A DNA stretch of 55,371 nucleotides from Verrucomicrobiales bacterium (GTDB lineage: Bacteria; Verrucomicrobiota; Verrucomicrobiia; Verrucomicrobiales; DEV007). The notes below the pieces were generated by a model. It saw only the letters and a program-made list of their open reading frames with translations, had not been told where the DNA came from and did no database searches. Positions within the stretch are counted from its first letter, which is position 1. Each line of letters opens with the position of its first letter. Positions 7,234 through 32,595 of the stretch are shown here, piece by piece. Location: contig JAOFXR010000015.1 in assembly GCA_028047635.1 (NCBI GenBank), positions 1 to 55,371 on the forward strand. The letters run 5' to 3'. The position numbers and the translations under genes are program-made.

Positions 7234-8556
7234 ATGACAAATTTCGCTCTTCCTCTTCGATTTATAATCACTCTTTTTTCCCTGACATTATTACCCAGCG
7301 CTTTTGCGGCCGTCACGGTTGAGGTTTCAATTGACAGGGAAGATGCGATCTATCAAACCGGTGAGGAGGTTACTTTCACTGTCACGGCGAAGGACGGGGC
7401 GAAAGAACTCGACTGGGGTGATATTCGCTGGGTCCTCTCTCGCGGTGGTTATGAGACACTTTCTCAAGGAGATGAAACGTTAGACGGCGGCAAAGGATTG
7501 CAGGTAAAAGGAAAACTCGGACGGCCGGGTTTTCTTTTGCTCACCGCGACCTTCACAGGTCCTGACGGAAAGAAAACCAACGGCTACGGGGGTGCCGGTT
7601 TTGCTCCGCTTGAGATCCAACCCAGCATGAATGCTCCCGATGAATTTGATGAATTCTGGGATGCCCAAAAAGTGGCGCTCGCGAAAATCCCGATGGAGGT
7701 TGAAAGTGTGCCTTTGACCGATGGGGTTGCTGAGGCCGTTGACGCCTTTGATGTGAAGATCAAATGCGCAAACGAGGGGCCTCCGGTGTCAGGCTATTTC
7801 GCGAAGTCGGAGAATGCACTACCAAAATCTTTGCCCGCTGTTTTGTTTGTTCATGGCGCGGGAGTGAGGTCGTCCTCACTGGGCACTGCGGTGAACGGCG
7901 CTAAAGCCGGGTTTCTCTCGATGGATATCAATGCTCACGGCAGCGAGAACGGAAAGCCACAGGCGTTCTACGATGAACTCAAGAAAGGTGACTTGAATGG
8001 TTATACCTATCAGGGGCGCGACAGTCGTGATGATATTTACTTCCGGGCGATGTATGTACGGATGATACGTGCGATCGATTTTCTGACGAGTCAGGCGGAG
8101 TGGGATGGGCAGGTCATGGCCGTCATTGGTCACAGCCAGGGCGGGCTGCAGGCTCTGGTTGCAGGAGGTCTTGATGAGCGAGTGACCTTTATTGGATCGG
8201 GCGTTCCAGCGGGCTGTGATCACACGGGAATGAAAGTGGATCGAATTAGTGGTTGGCCAAAGATTGTCCCGATCGTGGACGGCAAGCCTGGCCCGAAAGT
8301 GATTGAGGCGAGCCGTTATATTGACGCGGTGAATTTTGCCCGTCGTTGCCAGGCTGACGCGATTCTTAGCGTGGGTTTTATTGATCGAACGTGTCCGCCT
8401 ACGAGCGTTTACGCCGCTTACAATGCTTTGAAAGGTAAGAAGGAAATGATCAATGAGCCCAAAATGGGACACGCCCGACCCAAGCCGATCGAAGAAGCTT
8501 TTTGGAACGCTTTGAAAGCGCACGTTGCGGCGACCAAGGGGGCTGTCGCTAAATAG
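7234..8556 (+). CDS. Acetyl xylan esterase-like (AXE1 family) secreted hydrolase
   Basis: 440 residues from the ATG at 7234, which opens a good signal peptide (LPLRFIITLFSLTLLPSAFA). An ATG-type start 17 codons upstream would bury it. A beta-rich N-terminal domain (residues 22-130, VEVSIDREDAIYQTGEEVTF) precedes the alpha/beta-hydrolase part. The nucleophile elbow is GHSQGG with S301, the acid is D384 in VGFIDRTCPP and the base is H413 in MGHARP, the order seen in AXE1/cephalosporin-C deacetylases. It likely deacetylates a plant or algal polysaccharide, which fits the flanking sulfatases. Substrate is inferred from family and context only. Confidence 0.85.
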   Translation: MTNFALPLRFIITLFSLTLLPSAFAAVTVEVSIDREDAIYQTGEEVTFTVTAKDGAKELDWGDIRWVLSRGGYETLSQGDETLDGGKGLQVKGKLGRPGFLLLTATFTGPDGKKTNGYGGAGFAPLEIQPSMNAPDEFDEFWDAQKVALAKIPMEVESVPLTDGVAEAVDAFDVKIKCANEGPPVSGYFAKSENALPKSLPAVLFVHGAGVRSSSLGTAVNGAKAGFLSMDINAHGSENGKPQAFYDELKKGDLNGYTYQGRDSRDDIYFRAMYVRMIRAIDFLTSQAEWDGQVMAVIGHSQGGLQALVAGGLDERVTFIGSGVPAGCDHTGMKVDRISGWPKIVPIVDGKPGPKVIEASRYIDAVNFARRCQADAILSVGFIDRTCPPTSVYAAYNALKGKKEMINEPKMGHARPKPIEEAFWNALKAHVAATKGAVAK

Positions 8557-11037: not shown

Positions 11038-11296
11038 GCTCTTCACACCGCTTTCGATCTTTTGGTCGATGCTCCGGAGGGCAACCGTTTTGGCGCCGCT
11101 CTTTGTCGTCTTTCAGGTGCTTGTGGCCGCGAGCTGGGCGGCGCGATTCTTTTTCCCCTTTTTTATTTGTTTGTCCGGGCTGTCAGGAGATTGGATCGCT
11201 TTCGCGGCTTATTTCTTTGCGTGGCTGCTCTCGGTCGCGTTGTGGCGATGGAATACCTTTCGGAATCTCCTGGAGACACCTTCTTCGTTGCTCTGA
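11030..11296 (+). CDS. Small hydrophobic membrane protein, hypothetical
   Basis: 88 residues from the ATG at 11030, which overlaps the sulfatase stop (ATGAATAG). A GTG at 11018 is an alternative. Two or three hydrophobic segments are visible (ATVLAPLFVVFQVLVAASWA, FFFPFFICLSGLSG and WIAFAAYFFAWLLSVALW). No family is recognised. Overlap with the preceding gene and clear membrane character support it, but competing open frames over the same bases keep confidence moderate. Confidence 0.45.
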   Translation: MNRLFTPLSIFWSMLRRATVLAPLFVVFQVLVAASWAARFFFPFFICLSGLSGDWIAFAAYFFAWLLSVALWRWNTFRNLLETPSSLL

Positions 11297-11352
11297 ATGA
11301 CAGACGACAGTGATTGCTACTTTATCGTTTAAACGGTCAGCCGTTGAACTTT

Positions 11353-17527: not shown

Positions 17528-18888
17528 CTGAGGAAGGCGAGACGCCGATAGGGGCTGCGGTGGCGAACGAGGATATTGATATGGTCGAGTTACTTTTGGA
17601 TGGTGGCGTGAGTGCCTCGCCCAAAGTCGAGAATGGAGATACTCCCTTGATGCTCGCGGTGGGTTCAGGAAACGTTCCGATTGCCCACCAGCTGATTGCT
17701 TCAGGTGCGGCGATTAATAAGAATGCCTTACTCGCGAAGTCCTACACTCTTAGGGATGATCCTTTGATGAGTTTGCTTCTGAATTCAGGAGCCGACCCCG
17801 AGGCAGTGATCCCCGGAACTGAGCAACGAGTCTTTGATGCGGCGGTTCAAGATGGAGCGACGGGCGCCGTGAGAACGCTTCTTGCCGCAGGGGCTTCGAT
17901 TGGCGACAACCTTTGGGCGGCTCTTCTTACGGGGCAGGATGATTTGATTCGCTTGATTCTCGATGCTGGAGCTGATCCTCGTCAAAAGGGGCCGGAGGGA
18001 CAGGACCCTCTCGATTTTTGTTTGAAGCAGGAGCGCTATCGGGCTGCCCGTGAACTCCTCGACGGAGGCGCCAATCCGGATGCGCTTTACAGTGATGACA
18101 GAACCTGGCTCGAGGAGGCGATTCGCAAAGGAAATCCCAATATTGCTGAAGCGCTTATCAGGGCCGGAGCAACAGTGGAAGGCGTTCGCTGCAGCGATCG
18201 GCACACTTTTCTCGCGTGGGCGGTGGCTCACGAGATGCCCACAGTGGTGAAAGCCCTGCTTGATGCCGGAGTCGATCCCGATATCGATGAACGTTCTCCC
18301 GCGAGCTCTGAGTTTCAGAACATGTTCACGAGCACGACTTTTAAGTATCATCTCAGATCAGATCGTCGCATTCGCCCGATTATGATGGCCGCTGCGCAGC
18401 GAAATCATGAGATTGCACAGATTTTGATGGATGGCGGCGCAAACGGGAAGGCTTACACACCGAACTACCTCATGGCGGCGATTATCGGTTCCTGGTATAA
18501 GGACGCGAAGATGCAGCATATTGCCTTGCTGGGGAAAGTCCCTGAAGTTCAGCCTCGCCGAGTGATTGTCGATCTTCCGTCTCAGCGAGTGACTCTGTAT
18601 GAGAATGGCGTCGCGACTTATTCGACTCGTTGTTCAACCGGGAAGAGTGGCTATCGCACTCCTACTGGAGAGTATGTCATCAGCGACAGGCACCGCAGCC
18701 ATACTTCATCCATTTATGGTTCAAGCATGCCTTATTTCCAGCGCTTCAATTACAGCGCCTTCGGATTCCATGCGGGCTATGTGCCGAATTATCCTGCTTC
18801 ACATGGTTGCATTCGACTTCCCAAATCGGCGGCCCGCCATCTTTTCGGTAAGCTTGAAGTGGGTGACTATGCCGTGATTCAGCATTGA
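17512..18888 (+). pseudogene. Ankyrin/L,D-transpeptidase gene, 3' part with intact YkuD domain
   Basis: 458 residues in frame +1; the true continuation starts at about 17500. About nine further ankyrin repeats run to residue ~330, then a YkuD L,D-transpeptidase domain (VIVDLPSQRVTLYENG...STGKSGYRTPTGEY) with the active-site motif SHGCIRLP (catalytic Cys). L,D-transpeptidases make 3-3 crosslinks in peptidoglycan or attach lipoproteins to it. Fusion to a long ankyrin array is unusual. If translated alone from the ATG at 17512 the product would lack the membrane anchor and probably stay in the cytoplasm, so the domain would be misplaced. Confidence 0.75.
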
Positions 18889-26430: not shown

Positions 26431-27240
26431 TTAAACCGACTTGGCGGCATCGACAAGCGGTTTGACGAACTCCGCGACCTTCGCGGCGACCTCGTCCGCA
26501 TCACCATATTGTTCGACAATTCTGACGATGGCACTCCCGACGACGACTCCGTCTGAAGATCGGGCTACCTCAGCCGATTGCTCGGGCGTTGAAATGCCGA
26601 ATCCGACGACGATGGGGACATTGGTATGTGCTTTGATTTCGGCGACATTTTTTTCGATTCCCTCGGCGAGACTGGTTTGGGCTCCGGTGACACCTTCGCG
26701 TGAGACGTAATAAATGAAGCCTTCGCTCGAACTGGCCAGTTCGGGAATACGCTCAGCAGGGGAGGTCGGTGCGATCAGGCGGATGTGCTTGAGGTCGCTG
26801 TTTTCGGCGAGTTCTTCATTGATCGCTGCTTCCTCAGGAGGCAGGTCGAGGAGCAAAATCCCATCTGCTCCGGCGGCCGTAGCATCGTTGTGGAAATCGG
26901 AGAATCCGTAGGTGTAAACCGGATTGAGATAAGTGAAAAGAGCGATCGGTGCTTCAGAGGTCTCGCGAAACTTCCGAATCAGCTCGAGAACCTGCCTCGT
27001 GTTGGCCCCGGCCTCAAGGGCGCGGTGGGCTGCCATTTGATTAACGATCCCGTCCGCCATCGGATCTGAGAACGGGATTCCCAGTTCGATAATGTCTGCT
27101 CCCGCCGTTTCCAGCGCATGCATGATTTCAAGCGAGCGCTCCATCGTTGGGTCGCACGCGCAGATGTAAGCGACAAAGGCGGATTTGCCCGACTCACGCA
27201 AGCGTTCAAAGCACTGATCAATTCGGTTTTCCTGACTCAT
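26431..27240 (-). CDS. trpA: Tryptophan synthase alpha subunit
   Basis: 269 residues. Catalytic E52 (IIELGIPFSDP) and D63 (PMADG) match the enterobacterial E49 and D60. The C-terminal VVVGSAIV phosphate loop is present. The usual AYITAGDP is AYICACDP here, a minor change. It cleaves indole-glycerol phosphate and passes indole to TrpB, which is not in the window. trpA heads an operon with dapF, dapA, dapB and folK. Confidence 0.95.
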   Translation of the reverse strand: MSQENRIDQCFERLRESGKSAFVAYICACDPTMERSLEIMHALETAGADIIELGIPFSDPMADGIVNQMAAHRALEAGANTRQVLELIRKFRETSEAPIALFTYLNPVYTYGFSDFHNDATAAGADGILLLDLPPEEAAINEELAENSDLKHIRLIAPTSPAERIPELASSSEGFIYYVSREGVTGAQTSLAEGIEKNVAEIKAHTNVPIVVGFGISTPEQSAEVARSSDGVVVGSAIVRIVEQYGDADEVAAKVAEFVKPLVDAAKSV

Positions 27241-27762
27241 GAAAAGATCGCATTATCGCAGCAATCGGGCATCGCGAAACCGGAAATCGAGGTATTTTTG
27301 AAGGGCGGTTCCAAAAAGGCGGGGAAGACCTGGCTGTGTTAATTGGCCGCCGACTGATGGTCCCGCTCGGGGAAGAGTAACTGGCTCTAGTAGGCTCGCT
27401 AATATCTCCACCGACAGTGAGGTCACTCCGCGAGGAATAACCATCCTTCCGATGACTCCCAACGTGCTGGCTCAGAGCAAAAAATGTCTTCGTTTGTGAA
27501 GGCCGAAAACGGCAAACTTTGCTTGTGCAAATAATTTAAAGAGACAAAACATCCAGCTATCCTTAACCAAATGATCGGACCTGTAACGAATTGTCTTTTT
27601 ATGCTGATCGTAAAATAAACAAGTAACACTGGAATTTTTTCATAAAATTGTCCTCAAGCCCTGACGTCACAGGTGGAAATCGATTGAGTCACGGTAGAAG
27701 GTTTCTTGAAATCCAGACAGGTGAGTGCCTGAAATAGGAGGGGAATCGTTCTTGAATAGACG
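27241..27762. other. Non-coding region upstream of trpA and of the cassette array
   Basis: No convincing gene is seen; short open frames here have no family resemblance or plausible composition. The region must hold the promoter for the trpA operon (minus strand) and any promoter for the cassette genes (plus strand). Base composition becomes visibly AT-rich from about 27520. A small hairpin CAGG-TGAGTG-CCTG occurs at 27718-27731. No integrase gene or remnant is recognisable where an attI-adjacent intI would be expected. Confidence 0.5.
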
Positions 27763-27786
27763 GTTAGGCTGAGAAAACTAAATACG

Positions 27787-28302
27787 ATGAAACCGTTAGC
27801 AATATTCGCTCTCTTCTTCCCTTTTGCATTATTCGCTCAAGACCGGTTGCCAAATCGAATTGAAGTTTTAACCGAAAACTATGAGAGAGCAGTGGAACGA
27901 GCGACCAACCCCATCACTCAAAAATATGCCACAGAACTCAAAAAACTTTTGCTAGAACTAACTCAAAAAGGAGATTTGGCCCAAGCCCAGCAGGTCGAGA
28001 AGAAGTTACGAACTCTCGGAGTCCTCGAAAAGACACTTGGTGACATTCTATTAAGCGAAACGTGGGAGTATTCAGCAAACGGATCGAAGTCGCAAATCGT
28101 GTTTAAGGATGATGGGACAGCTCAAATGGCTGGCGAATCGAACGGCGTTTTTCCGTGGAAGTTGGAAGACGAGTTAACTCTTACCTTATTGTATAGCGAC
28201 GGTAATTCCTGCACCTTCAAATTCCGTGATCTCGAGACTTTATCTGTCGAAGGCAAGACTAGACTTGGAGGTGCGATCCGTACCCTCAAACCAAAGGAAT
28301 AG
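27787..28302 (+). CDS. Cassette 1: exported protein with helical hairpin and beta C-terminal domain, hypothetical
   Basis: 171 residues. The signal peptide (MKPLAIFALFFPFALFA) precedes a helical hairpin (~25-80, YERAVERATNPITQKYATEL, LTQKGDLAQAQQVEKKL). The C-terminal domain (~88-168) has a lipocalin-like or beta pattern (ETWEYSANG, IVFKDDGTAQMAG, GVFPWKLEDELTLTLLY). The hairpin is the same type as in the SUMF1-like gene at 12270-12653 and is common in exported verrucomicrobial proteins. No enzymatic motif is seen. Codon use is more AT-rich than in neighbouring operons. Confidence 0.7.
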   Translation: MKPLAIFALFFPFALFAQDRLPNRIEVLTENYERAVERATNPITQKYATELKKLLLELTQKGDLAQAQQVEKKLRTLGVLEKTLGDILLSETWEYSANGSKSQIVFKDDGTAQMAGESNGVFPWKLEDELTLTLLYSDGNSCTFKFRDLETLSVEGKTRLGGAIRTLKPKE

Positions 28303-28323
28303 CGCATTCCAATTCCATGAAGA

Positions 28324-28448
28324 GCCTGACAAGACGGAGATCTCAAGGCCGATCACGCCGCGAGTTGATTGACTTTCCTGATTCGAATCTTTACCATTCA
28401 TTCGAAATCGCGCCCTCTGATCGGTCTGAGATTTTTTGAACGTTCGCT
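28324..28448 (+). repeat. attC-like site 1
   Basis: The left half GACAAGACGG...ATCTCAAGGCCGATCACG and right half TGATCGGTCTGAGAT...GAACGTTC are inverted repeats: ATCTCA pairs with TGAGAT, CCGATCA with TGATCGG, and a CGCGA block with TCGCG further in. The loop part (28365-28405) is not conserved. GTTC is at 28442-28445. It matches sites 2 and 3 in end sequences and spacing. The right box GTTCGCT departs from the usual GTTRRRY. Confidence 0.7.
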
Positions 28449-28455
28449 CTGGAAA

Positions 28456-28821
28456 ATGGCTTGGCACTGGAATGACGACACCGCCTTAACGGCAGAGAAT
28501 TTTTCGTTCGCTCCTTCCGGCGGCAGATTCAAATTAGTCATTCTCGGGCTCATTCTTCCATGCGTGATCTTGTATTTCGGTATTCGTGGCTGGATTACCC
28601 AAGAGGCTCTGTGGGTTGGCGACGGTATCGATCTTGGCGTCAGCGGGGTAACCGCTCGGGCAATTTCATTCGCGTATTCGGGGATCGGGATGCTTTTCCA
28701 TTTCCGGTGGGTGTGGGGCATACTTGGGTTCCACCGGACTTTCGAGATTGGCACGATTTTTTCTGCGTTGGGGATTATTGGAGGGATTGCTTATGGATTC
28801 TATTACGAACTTCGATACTGA
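28456..28821 (+). CDS. Cassette 2: small membrane protein, hypothetical
   Basis: 121 residues from the ATG at 28456, 10 nt after the site-1 CGTTC. A longer reading would begin inside the attC-like site. A hydrophilic N-terminus (MAWHWNDDTALTAENF) is followed by three hydrophobic segments (about 31-47, 66-85 and 94-115). No family is recognised. Confidence 0.65.
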   Translation: MAWHWNDDTALTAENFSFAPSGGRFKLVILGLILPCVILYFGIRGWITQEALWVGDGIDLGVSGVTARAISFAYSGIGMLFHFRWVWGILGFHRTFEIGTIFSALGIIGGIAYGFYYELRY

Positions 28822-28828
28822 ACATAAC

Positions 28829-28954
28829 GCTAGAACAAGCCGGCGATCGTAAGCCTGAGCACGCTTTGAGTTGGTTGATGTTACGTATTGGAATCTTTAC
28901 ACTTTCGCTTAGACGGCGCTCCGTCATCAGGCTGAGGTGCCCCAAACGTTCGCT
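28829..28954 (+). repeat. attC-like site 2
   Basis: The left half GAACAAGCCGGCGATCG...AAGCCTGAGCACGC and right half GGCGCTCCGTCATCAGGCTGAGG...AAACGTTC are homologous to sites 1 and 3. AGCCTGA pairs with TCAGGCT, and GAAC with GTTC at the ends (28833-28836 and 28948-28951). The site begins 8 bp after the cassette-2 stop codon. Confidence 0.7.
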
Positions 28955-28962
28955 GATAAAAA

Positions 28963-29595
28963 ATGGCAGGCTGCACGAATAACCGGAAAACGACACCTAA
29001 AGTTCGCAACGGACAGGTTCAAAAAAAGAATCGTCATGCACCTACGCGCCTCAACAGCTTCTCCTTTGGCTTTATAGGCAGCGGAGGTCGACTCGCTACG
29101 ACCAAGGAAGAGGTGTGGAAGTTTCTTCGACTGATCCCAGACTGGAAGCGCGTCTCATCTGACCTCGACATCATCGACTTGAACGCCGAGGTGAGTAACG
29201 AGGCCGATGGGTGGTATGAATATCCTCAACAGCCGGGAATTGTTTTGAACGCTTTCGAGGACGATTTGAGAACATTTCCGGGGCAGGATTATTTTGAGCA
29301 GCATCAGGCATTGTTCCGCCGTCTTGGAGTGGACATTCAGGAGGACGAGCACGGGTATCCAGTGTGCCAGTTCGATGAAGACTCCGCGAAAGCGTTTCAG
29401 CTACTTCACATACTACTTCATGAGCTTGGGCATCATCACTACCGTATTACTAGAGGACGCGGGCGTTTTGCTGGTGACGAGAAATATGCAGAGAACTATG
29501 CTTTGAAGATGGAACGAATGATTTGGAAACGTTATTGCGAGGTGTTCGCTTTCAGACCGCGGCACAGCAAACAAGCCGAGCCACCCAAGCCCTGA
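28963..29595 (+). CDS. Cassette 3: HExxH zinc metallopeptidase-like protein
   Basis: 210 residues from the ATG at 28963, 11 nt after the site-2 CGTTC. The zinc motif LLHELGHHHYRITR lies at about residues 150-163, with a downstream acidic DEKYAENYA that could supply the third ligand (gluzincin-like). The N-terminal ~30 residues are basic; despite an AGC near the start there is no hydrophobic segment, so it is probably cytoplasmic. Its stop codon lies inside attC-like site 3, a common arrangement in integron cassettes. The substrate is unknown. Confidence 0.7.
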   Translation: MAGCTNNRKTTPKVRNGQVQKKNRHAPTRLNSFSFGFIGSGGRLATTKEEVWKFLRLIPDWKRVSSDLDIIDLNAEVSNEADGWYEYPQQPGIVLNAFEDDLRTFPGQDYFEQHQALFRRLGVDIQEDEHGYPVCQFDEDSAKAFQLLHILLHELGHHHYRITRGRGRFAGDEKYAENYALKMERMIWKRYCEVFAFRPRHSKQAEPPKP

Positions 29596-29689
29596 CCGCG
29601 CCACGTCACAATGTCTTCTCTAATCCACGAGCTTCCTTCACAATCCACCCGCGCCCTCAAATCGGGCTGAGATTCTTCAAGCGTTCTGC
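29566..29689 (+). repeat. attC-like site 3
   Basis: The left half AAACAAGCCGAGCC...AAGCCCTGACCGCG and right half GCGCCCTCAAATCGGGCTGAGATT...AAGCGTTC are homologous to sites 1 and 2. AGCCC pairs with GGGCT; one extra T bulges in the left arm, as extrahelical bases do in attC. GTTC is at 29683-29686. It overlaps the 3' end of cassette gene 3. Confidence 0.7.
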
Positions 29690-29690
29690 G

Positions 29691-30124
29691 ATGAAATTAA
29701 AATATTGGCTCATCTTTGGATTCGGCTCGGTTCTCTCTGCATCGGGAAGCCCGATTCCGTCCCGATCGATTCGATGGAAATGCTCGATCAGTTGAAGGTT
29801 CGTATTGAGCACGAAGAGTTTGATGGCATCAGGGACGACGGACGTGACGTCGTTGTGAAACTGACTTGGAAACCAATTCAGAAAGACAAAGATTTCCCTC
29901 CCCGCTTCGATCTAATTCTGTTTCGACCGACTGAGCCGGGGGAGCGAAGCAAAAGACGAATGTGGGTGATAACCAAGCCGGACGCTGAAGGGGTGTGCGT
30001 TTCCGAGTTCGTAGTTTCCAAGTCTGAGGTGGAACATGCTCAATTAATTTTTCGCAACGGACAACATGAGGTTTACGGATTTTCCTTAGCCGAATTCTTA
30101 GAGGGGTTTCCAGATCCCGGATAG
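29691..30124 (+). CDS. Cassette 4: small protein of unknown function, probably frameshifted after its signal peptide
   Basis: The ATG at 29691, 4 nt after the site-3 CGTTC, encodes a convincing signal peptide (MKLKYWLIFGFGSVLSASGS), but this frame stops at 29795. The main open frame (to 30124) is offset by one position. It can start only at TTG 29705 or ATG 29774 and encodes MLDQLKVRIEHEEFDGIRDD...FSLAEFLEGFPDPG, about 115 residues. Joining the two frames between 29745 and 29775 would give an exported protein of about 140 residues. Alternatively the short cytoplasmic form is real. No family is recognised. Confidence 0.5.
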
Positions 30125-30162
30125 GGATTTGGAGCTAAGTCTTTCCGCAAGGCCGACGAAAG

Positions 30163-30318
30163 CGCCGAACAAGATTAAGCCCAGAACAAGAGGTTGCCGT
30201 GATCAAGCAAGGCTGCTGCCGTGAGTGGGGCGGCCATGGGCAATTCGATCCCCTTTATTTGTGCCAACCCTAGGCGTCTGTCGGGGATGGTATGTCAGTG
30301 ATGTATGAAAAACGTTGG
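30163..30318 (+). other. Possible degenerate fourth attC-like site / right edge of the array
   Basis: GAACAAG occurs twice (30167-30173 and 30183-30189) just after cassette gene 4, as at the left end of sites 1-3. An AACGTTG is found at 30311-30317. I could not find a convincing fold between the two ends, and the spacing does not equal 112 nt. The stretch otherwise holds no gene. Confidence 0.3.
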
Positions 30319-31176
30319 CTACTCCCCAAGCGCCTTAGTCACCGCGATATCAAGTTCCTCACCTCGCAAATCCGACGCGATGATTTCCCCACCTTTGCCG
30401 ACGAGAAATGAGGCTGGGAGTCGGTTGATTCCGAATCGCTGGGCGAGTTCATTGTCGTAGCCTTTGCCATCGCAATACTGCGGCCAGGTAATACCTTTAT
30501 CGGCACTGAATTTTTCGACCGCCTCGATGCTGTCGTCGAGTGAGATCCCGATCACTTCAAAGCCTTTGTCTTTGTTCTCAGCGTAGGCCTTGATGATGCC
30601 CGGAATCTCGGCAATGCAGGGCGCGCACCAGGTGGCCCAGAAGTCGACGAGGATGACTTTGCCTCCCATCGTGGTGGTGTCAATCTCGTTGCCGTTGAGA
30701 TCAGTGAAGGCGATGTCCATCCGGTCTCCAACGCCGGGGAGATAAAGTTCAGCTCCGAATTGATCGAGGATCGCAGTTACCTGGCCGGCCGAGGGGCTGT
30801 TGGCAAAGTCGGCCTTCACTCTCGCAACGAATGCTTTCGCTTTGTCTCGCTGGTCAGAGACGATCGCGGCATCGATAAGTGGTCTCACGATTTCGCCGAT
30901 GATGAGTTGAAGATTAGGTTCCTCCTCCTTTGCCTGAAGTTCGTATCGCTGAGTGAGAAGGTCGGGGACCGGCTTGAATTCTCCTACTGCGAGGTAGGCG
31001 CCGACGAGAATGGCAATCGCTTTTTCTCTGTCTTCTGCTTCTGGATTGTCAGTGAGGTAGGTCTCAATCGCTTCGATTTTTTGCTGATCAAAACGACTCG
31101 CGATCTCCGTTACATTTTCTGACAGAGCAGCGGTGGTGAGGCTTAGAGCCGCGATGAGAAGAAAAGGGGCTTTCAT
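30319..31176 (-). CDS. TlpA/ResA-like exported thioredoxin-fold protein
   Basis: 285 residues from the ATG at 31176, which opens the signal peptide (MKAPFLLIAALSLTTAALS). An upstream start 23 codons earlier is rejected. A helical N-terminal region (~20-150) precedes the redoxin domain with WATWCAPCIAEIPG (CxxC) and the later cis-Pro segment GINRLPASFLVGKGG. It is probably a periplasmic thiol-disulfide reductase. It follows the lipoprotein gene (31242-31787) on the same strand, 65 bp apart. Confidence 0.88.
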   Translation of the reverse strand: MKAPFLLIAALSLTTAALSENVTEIASRFDQQKIEAIETYLTDNPEAEDREKAIAILVGAYLAVGEFKPVPDLLTQRYELQAKEEEPNLQLIIGEIVRPLIDAAIVSDQRDKAKAFVARVKADFANSPSAGQVTAILDQFGAELYLPGVGDRMDIAFTDLNGNEIDTTTMGGKVILVDFWATWCAPCIAEIPGIIKAYAENKDKGFEVIGISLDDSIEAVEKFSADKGITWPQYCDGKGYDNELAQRFGINRLPASFLVGKGGEIIASDLRGEELDIAVTKALGE

Positions 31177-31986: not shown

Positions 31987-32265
31987 ATGGAATTCGATTG
32001 GATAGACTGTCACTTCGACCTGAAAAAGGTAACACCTAAAGAGGTGGAGGAAGTTTTTGAGGATCCTTTTTCGATTCGTCTCTTTCCCGAGAATGACAAC
32101 ACCGGGACGGACGCCCGCTATTTTGCATTGGGAAAAACCATTAATAACCGGCCTTTGTTCTCGGCCTTTTGGACCGACGGCAAACGTTATCGCGTGATTC
32201 TCTGTCGCGAGATGAATGACGATGAACTCACCTTTTACGAAAGAAAAAACGCTGAGTGGGTCTAA
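31987..32265 (+). CDS. brnT: BrnT-family toxin (type II toxin-antitoxin)
   Basis: 92 residues. It opens EFDWIDCHFDLKK, then VEEVFEDPFSIRLF, ARYFALGKTINNRPLFSAFWTDG and YRVILCREMNDDE, with an R/E-containing C-terminus. The order matches BrnT ribonuclease toxins (~90 residues, RelE-like fold). The adjacent gene encodes a ribbon-helix-helix antitoxin, completing the usual toxin-first order. It likely cleaves RNA when freed from BrnA. Confidence 0.8.
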   Translation: MEFDWIDCHFDLKKVTPKEVEEVFEDPFSIRLFPENDNTGTDARYFALGKTINNRPLFSAFWTDGKRYRVILCREMNDDELTFYERKNAEWV

Positions 32266-32316
32266 TCCTCCTGGGCACCATACCCTGTTTGATCCACCAT
32301 CTAACCCTGTTGCATT

Positions 32317-32595
32317 TTGAAAACGATCGAAAAGTGGGAAGACATTCCTGAATTTGACAGTGATAAAGAAGAAGCGGAATTCTGGACTTTCCATACTCTG
32401 GATCCCCGTCTCATGAACGCCTCCGTGCAGCGTCAGACGGTTCGGGAATCGACTACGATTACGCTCCGCTTTGATCCGCAAATGCTAAGCCGTATCAAGC
32501 GACTCGCCCGCCATCGCTATCTGAATTATCAGAGCATGATAAAGCAGTGGCTCAGTGAGCGCCTCGAAGAGGAAGTGCGAAAGCAAAACGACTAG
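32317..32595 (+). CDS. brnA: BrnA-family antitoxin, ribbon-helix-helix
   Basis: 92 residues from a TTG start at 32317; no ATG is available before the conserved part. The N-terminal half (KWEDIPEFDSDKEEAEFWTFH) binds toxin in this family. The C-terminal half ESTTITLRFDPQMLSRIKRLARHRYLNYQSMIKQWL is a CopG-like DNA-binding fold, shown here as separate pieces ITLRFD and NYQSMIKQWL. It is 51 bp after brnT and 34 bp before ligA. It probably represses its own promoter. Confidence 0.78.
   Translation: MKTIEKWEDIPEFDSDKEEAEFWTFHTLDPRLMNASVQRQTVRESTTITLRFDPQMLSRIKRLARHRYLNYQSMIKQWLSERLEEEVRKQND

Follow-up and report, generated by a model that had tools for sequence, protein, structure and literature searches.

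Integrons are described as a single intI–attI locus followed by its cassettes, and intI-less clusters as leftovers of such loci or as the products of off-target insertions. In the portions of the literature that were available to us, Verrucomicrobiota is listed among the phyla with integrons and three routes to clusters of attC sites lacking integron-integrases (CALINs) are given (PMC8618304); intI inactivation and CALINs are reported from Xanthomonas (PMC12444791), CALINs and single attC sites from Shewanella (PMC9229058), CALINs and capture in trans from archaeal bins (PMC9668308), and insertion sites named attG have been set apart (PMC12901181). The accessible part of a study that models attC by taxon leaves Verrucomicrobia unnamed (PMC8352920), and the string "Verrucomicrob" is absent from the main text of another report, as far as that text was at hand (PMC9024848). 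Integrons and CALINs are already known, also in Verrucomicrobiota, and the doubt that an initial sequence-only reading of the present locus had voiced about this phylum is met by the first of these sources, a review. In this study, we analysed a cassette array between trpA and a tlpA-like gene on the 55,371-base contig JAOFXR010000015.1 (the window, which is the whole of contig C57) of a Verrucomicrobiales bacterium (genome G000; 3.18 Mb, 193 contigs, 63% complete). Based on our results, it is likely that this locus is an integron-type array lacking its own integrase, composed of an attI-like block and four cassettes and using an integrase from elsewhere (Table 1); three of its attC sites are recognisable and a fourth has probably been lost.

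The window array resembles a CALIN in its attC-bearing cassettes, its short codirectional genes and the lack of intI nearby, and it has more than the two attC sites asked of this class, with three recognised by our covariance model R1 and no intI on the contig. It differs in that a conserved attI-like block, found next to intI as well in relatives, stands at its head; with no intI, the CALIN label holds by definition, yet the locus is more than a bare attC cluster. Like the sedentary chromosomal integron of Xanthomonas with its inactivated intI, the array outlives the integrase and its contents vary between relatives, but in the available part of that report intI lies at one place (ilvD), whereas intI-less blocks are found here at three places in G000 and at six in a relative, G041 (PMC12444791). 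With insertion at attG, as treated in the sections we could consult, it shares cassettes that lie away from intI and GTT ends, although the insertion point here is a conserved block of ~206 nt and not a minimal target (PMC12901181, PMC12444791). Arrays of attC are common in the genus and the array itself is ordinary; the leader and the dispersed intI-less copies are the noteworthy part. In the open-licence literature we found no title or abstract start that deals with dispersed multi-copy attI platforms without intI, which is weak evidence of absence, and no paper that combines "multiple attI" with integron.

Table 1. Features of the array between trpA and the tlpA-like gene and of its flanks (positions in the window).
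Feature	Positions	Strand	Remarks
trpA	26431-27240	minus	
Conserved stretch just 5' of trpA	27241..27290	minus	Intact next to the insert; common to L062, with similar sequence at many of the other 28 loci of the genus
attI-like block	27564..27769	+	Ends in GTT where cassette 1 begins; homologous to intI-side DNA in G007:C32 and to two further G000 copies
Cassette 1	27764..28442	+	Bounded by G^TT at both ends; gene 27787-28302 (171 aa), without a family above cut-off
attC of cassette 1	28320..28452	+	R1 125.5 bits; in training set
Cassette 2	28443..28948	+	Gene 28456-28821, 121 aa
attC of cassette 2	28826..28958	+	R1 98.7 bits; in training set
Cassette 3	28949..29683	+	Gene 28963-29595, 210 aa, with HELGHHH
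attC of cassette 3, degenerate	29562..29693	+	R1 64 bits; in training set; L helix 6/15 in fixed frame
Cassette 4	29684..30314	+	Long frame 29705-30124; possibly frameshifted near start
Putative attC of cassette 4, decayed or lost	30163..30316	+	AACAAG at 30163 or 30180 pairs 7/8 with the cassette 4 start; GTT at 30314 where tlpA homology resumes
tlpA-like gene	30319-31173	minus	

The four plus-strand genes of the trpA–tlpA interval are separated, as first proposed, by three homologous elements of ~130 nt, and these elements are attC sites. Each carries a GTT core at its 3' end. The spacing from (A/G)ACAAG to CGTTC is 107, 107 and 106 nt by our count, against the 112, 112 and 111 nt given initially, the 0/0/-1 pattern being the same. 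The elements are not a product of chance, as an alignment of the three picks up more copies elsewhere in G000. Iteration of this profile yielded 19 elements in the examined stretches, from which R1 was built, and R1 in turn, with 150 of the 478 candidates from a first look scored, found at least 21 elements on ten contigs of G000, all with E of at most 1e-7, 19 of them being the training set and the other two lying on C128 and C150. Contig C26 (3.56 kb) is an array from end to end, with five elements and one main gene between neighbours. As to occurrence away from cassettes, which had been named as a point that would speak against the proposal, G000 has four single copies, on C122, C172, C128 and C150 (C128 and C150 were checked for intI and attC only). 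On C163, an attC-like stretch (7269-7403 of locus L012, R1 56.7 bits) overlaps the initial portion of a reading frame at 7256-7645.

RNAalifold predicted zero pairs on a MAFFT alignment of the 19 elements, and the attC structure was therefore drawn by hand, with an R helix of 8 pairs, an L helix of 15 pairs and, as a possible counterpart of the extrahelical bases of attC sites, one unpaired column in the L arm. In this structure 71.1% of the cells pair, against 56.5 (sd 1.7) after shuffling (0/500), and the covariation score is 0.410 against 0.196 in shuffles (0/500), with the caveat that related sequences can exceed shuffles; slid versions of the structure pair at 26.5-37.7%, a control generous to the structure because it was drawn from the same sequences. 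The summed score of all 19 elements is 461, and when arms were swapped between elements it averaged 337 (sd 18.7, 0/20000); the same swap on the three window elements alone was not significant (6720/20000). Complementary R''/R' and L''/L' arms with compensatory change are thus present over the 19 genome copies. In the window, pairing is excellent in element 1, good in element 2 and poor in element 3 (fixed structure, L helix 15/15, 12/15 and 6/15; R helix 5/8, 4/8 and 4/8), and the initial statement that the halves are complementary in every copy was too strong.

If cassettes move as circles opened between G and TT, the first bases of each cassette complete its own attC in the circular form; R'' of an attC is then expected to match the beginning of the cassette it belongs to rather than the adjoining R'. 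Over 83 cassettes from 16 loci, own-start pairing reached 7.18 of 8 positions, against 5.53 in place and 5.42 at random, and was better than pairing in place for 65 cassettes and worse for 6, with 12 ties (Wilcoxon 2.8e-11). The loci were chosen for holding arrays, sites more than 2.5 kb apart were left unpaired, and matches that were unlisted or cut by a locus end were excluded. The window follows the same rule: for cassette 1, pairing of the start, GTTAGGCT, with R'' of the cassette's attC is 8/8, against 5/8 in place, and the values are 5 against 4 for cassette 2 and 7 against 4 for cassette 3. Judged from the sequences, own-start pairing is the mark that independent circular units would leave; the test yields true cassette ends from sequence alone and is applicable to any genome.

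The attC family is linked to intI in relatives. With the TIGR02249 cut-off (265 bits) as threshold, intI was found in 12 of the 36 genomes searched, G000 included, ten of them from the genus and two from a single other family within the order. Twenty intI neighbourhoods were examined, with strands read off by hand; R1 found attC at 12, and at nine of these intI and the array diverge, which is the classical integron arrangement. At the other three (L045, L048 and L058) intI is on the strand of the array. As background, R1 matched at two of the 31 trpA loci searched (of 52), L062 of the nearest relative and L086, and Markov-resampled copies of 72 loci gave no match to an earlier nhmmer profile. 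The L086 match (11209-11340, 92.7 bits) is a strong single attC just after dapA in another Verrucomicrobiales genome. Genus-wide, R1 matches occur in at least 29 of 33 genomes (at most 102 candidates scored per genome). In several genomes intI exceeds the cut-off at multiple places (three in each of G007 and G008, four in G029), and the IntI proteins of the genus have long N-terminal extensions; the intI of G007:C32 (8582-9952 of L054) encodes 456 aa with Pfam domains only from residue 112 and scores 322 bits against TIGR02249. In G000 itself no intI exceeds the cut-off, and three weak matches (31.8, 25.6 and 21 bits) all lie outside C57, so that no intI adjoins the array as it would in a complete integron. 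The initial statement that there is no integrase holds for this contig and is limited to it, because the genome is 63% complete and contig C163 bears a decayed intI end.

The comparison between relatives that had been suggested as a check shows presence and absence at the insertion site. Relatives were gathered by trpA from Verrucomicrobiales and other Verrucomicrobiota bins, and a trpA match is found in 29 of the 33 genus genomes. Among the 28 other than G000, 20 are empty, with tlpA directly upstream of trpA and a gap of 43-240 nt, one is occupied (G007, on the same contig as L062), and seven are unclear, with no tlpA within the examined stretch (under 600 nt in two of them). R1 on the 28 trpA stretches found attC in G007 only. 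In this nearest relative (TrpA 91% identical), the gap measures 3,092 nt and holds three attC and four different genes, none of which matches the window insert at E up to 1; Pfam names two of them, as DMP19 and, just above cut-off, ExbD. Between the window and G007, the flanks are homologous up to 27289 and again from 30316 on. At ~56 kb from its trpA-site array, that G007 contig has an intI with 12 attC. The same four genes at the same spacing in distant relatives, which had been given as grounds for rejecting the array, were not seen among the genomes searched.

The sequence-only reading overlooked the leader of the array. Positions 27569-27776 match the DNA between intI and the first cassette in G007:C32, just upstream of intI (66%, E 4e-9), and 27562-27777 match G000:C1 ahead of that contig's own array (73%, E 9e-31). 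A sequence-only model from five aligned copies of the block, R2, gave at least 14 matches in 6 of the 33 genomes (at most 74 candidates scored per genome). Eleven are strong (83 bits or more, five of them training copies) and fall in three genomes, with three in G000, one in G007 and seven in G041; of the others, one reaches 43 bits (G002) and two are weak (G022, G036). A genus IntI profile was searched beside all 14 blocks, over at least 1.4 kb on the intI side of each and, in G041, from ~1.5 kb to several kb around the blocks. Two blocks adjoin intI, in G007:C32 and G041:C463, at ~95 and ~97 nt given the chosen start methionine. With its homology to intI-adjacent DNA in G007:C32 and a further copy placed likewise in G041:C463, the block is probably attI. 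The IntI proteins at these two places are 73% identical to each other and 39-60% identical to the 17 other IntI compared, and the block therefore seems to go with one IntI lineage.

Within the examined stretches, attC follows ten of the 14 blocks; none was shown in G002, G022 or G036, and C463 ends 120 nt past its block. At these ten blocks the first-cassette junction pairs at 7.5 of 8 positions with its own attC, against 6.0 when swapped and 5.1 in place (0/20000); pairing in place is better than the own junction at G041:C185, and the in-place value of G041:C119, whose attC is cut by the contig end, is unreliable. The block contains a near-invariant inverted repeat, with AACGATTT by its left end and AAATCGTT by its right end. 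A -35/-10-like pattern can be aligned by eye across the block copies, which makes a promoter in the block plausible at that level.

Taken together, covariation, the linkage of attC to intI in relatives, own-start pairing and the empty-site comparison bear out the initial proposal of an integron-type array without intI. In our model, the array would have been inserted between tlpA and trpA, leaving untouched the conserved 50 nt upstream of trpA, which by eye look like a promoter; the block would belong to the intI lineage that adjoins it in G007:C32 and G041:C463, and the integrase would be supplied in trans. We infer its attI and promoter function, any present activity and the origin of the platforms. 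A broader proposal is conceivable but doubtful: intI-less modules of attI plus cassettes would multiply at scattered chromosomal positions, a single copy with intI would supply all of them in trans, and the integron would be a distributed system instead of one locus.

Several observations weigh against an attI-headed array served in trans. Element 3 pairs poorly, and when the three elements are folded as single-stranded DNA without constraints, no significant energy results (bottom-strand z = -0.79, +0.60 and +1.48); folding as attC, both the check and the possible refutation named at the outset, is thus supported by covariation over the 19 copies and not by free folding. No attC is recognised after gene 4, where R1 gives at most 4.4 bits at 30163..30316; that this stretch is the decayed attC of cassette 4 is a guess from its sequence. 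The attC sites after gene 2 and after its G008 copy are 0.67 alike, no more than other pairs tried (0.55-0.72), which is unexplained. At the trpA site of G007, the leader retains at most a weak remnant of the attI-like block (6.3 bits, 1/1000 resampled as high), and the last 25 nt of that leader are not significant. Except for the C163 remnant, no intI of the block-linked lineage was found in G000. Finally, a promoter scan of 27100-30500 gave two sites (2.5 expected), with no sigma-70-like site in the leader.

Pure off-target insertion was our initial working view and was dropped on the homology of the leader to intI-side DNA. Under that explanation the locus would be a bare CALIN inserted into a chromosomal GTT of the attG type, with ordinary repeated DNA as its leader. 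GTT is indeed found at both ends of the insert (27763 and 30314) with no intI near, and, in what is accessible of these sources, off-target insertion is a known route to CALINs (PMC8618304) and attG sites have been named (PMC12901181). The leader, however, is homologous to intI-side DNA in two relatives, heads other arrays and is missing from the 43-240 nt gaps seen in relatives, which leaves this explanation improbable. It is somewhat less improbable, but still unlikely, that the block is an ORF-less (without open reading frame), promoter-bearing cassette often in first place and not attI. The -35/-10-like pattern would suit such a cassette; the near-constant distance to the intI start in both intI-linked copies would not, nor would the absence of an R1-family attC at the block end and of any other attI-like stretch between block and intI, and the promoter scan is empty in the leader. 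A non-integron origin, as dispersed repeats between unrelated genes or as an assembly artefact of a fragmented bin, could draw on the 193 contigs, the 63% completeness and the four single elements, but it is contradicted by intI linkage, own-start pairing and the same-site array in an independent assembly, and we regard it as very improbable.

The most probable of the alternatives shares our view of the nature of the locus and departs from it in the matter of origin only: a complete integron would have lost intI in situ, and the several copies per genome would reflect independent losses with no spread of platforms. In its favour, the DNA 100-250 nt left of the window block has a marginal likeness to intI N-terminal coding DNA (7/500 and 10/500 shuffles as high), and G000:C163 carries a decayed C-terminal intI piece of the block-linked lineage, ~260 nt from attC and pointing away from the array; intI loss is also common in Xanthomonas, according to the part of that study available to us (PMC12444791). 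Against it, C1 and C119 show no such likeness in the same test (100, 52, 154 and 146 of 500 as high) and the window holds no intI remnant at protein level; the 85 nt adjoining the window block gave 197/1000 and 23/1000. Moreover, five G041 copies (C466, C208, C33, C185 and C495) are 79-93% alike and 73-79% alike to the intI-linked C463, and share a left extension of ~27 nt that is absent from C463. A tree of the 12 blocks has no well-supported branch. Independent losses are a serious possibility, short of an even chance, and we lean tentatively towards amplification of the platforms in G041 and loss in G000. To the left of three intI-less G041 blocks (L194, L201 and L204, on C466, C33 and C495), ACCCTGTTG is directly repeated at a period of 22 nt, and two such units are also present in the stretch around G041 trpA (L170, L071).

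The four cassette genes have nothing over cut-off in Pfam or NCBIfam, and only gene 1 drew matches from PADLOC and PHROGs, a single weak one from either (E 0.01 and 0.052). They are patchy among the 33 genus genomes, G000 included: gene 1 is found in 13 (mostly weakly), gene 2 in four, gene 3 in two and gene 4 in two. The gene 2 product has a relative of 83% aa identity within an intI-linked array of G008, and the DNA match (84%, 28441-28829) begins one base before the GTT of attC 1 and ends at the start of attC 2, which are the ends of the cassette body. A short (~60 nt) attC-like palindrome was seen by eye before this G008 gene (L042, ~17780-17835); long and short attC sites may be mixed within that one array. 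The gene 3 product has a relative of ~59-60% aa identity in G037 that keeps HELGHHH, presumably a zinc-protease-like motif; it has no sequence relative in PDB and no phage relative. Gene 4 has a relative (32% aa) located in an attC array of G005. It appears to be split over two frames (29691-29795 and 29705-30124), one opening at ATG 29691 with what resembles a signal peptide and the other encoding the conserved body, and it was searched from 29690 (family search, G005 relative) or from TTG 29705 (later Pfam, NCBIfam, PADLOC and PHROGs searches). The claim that the next gene starts 4-12 nt after each element agrees with the ATGs at 28456, 28963 and 29691, which lie 10, 11 and 4 nt past CGTTC; the last of these, however, opens a frame of only ~34 codons. 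In the window as a whole, Rfam has no match at gathering scores, and two small genes at 31987-32595 precede ligA, as in many trpA loci; by eye, and with no family search run on them, they look BrnT/BrnA-like.

If such clusters do have real multi-copy attI platforms, one integrase could run many sites of cassette capture and expression, and the platforms would be overlooked wherever attI is searched for in a few classes only.

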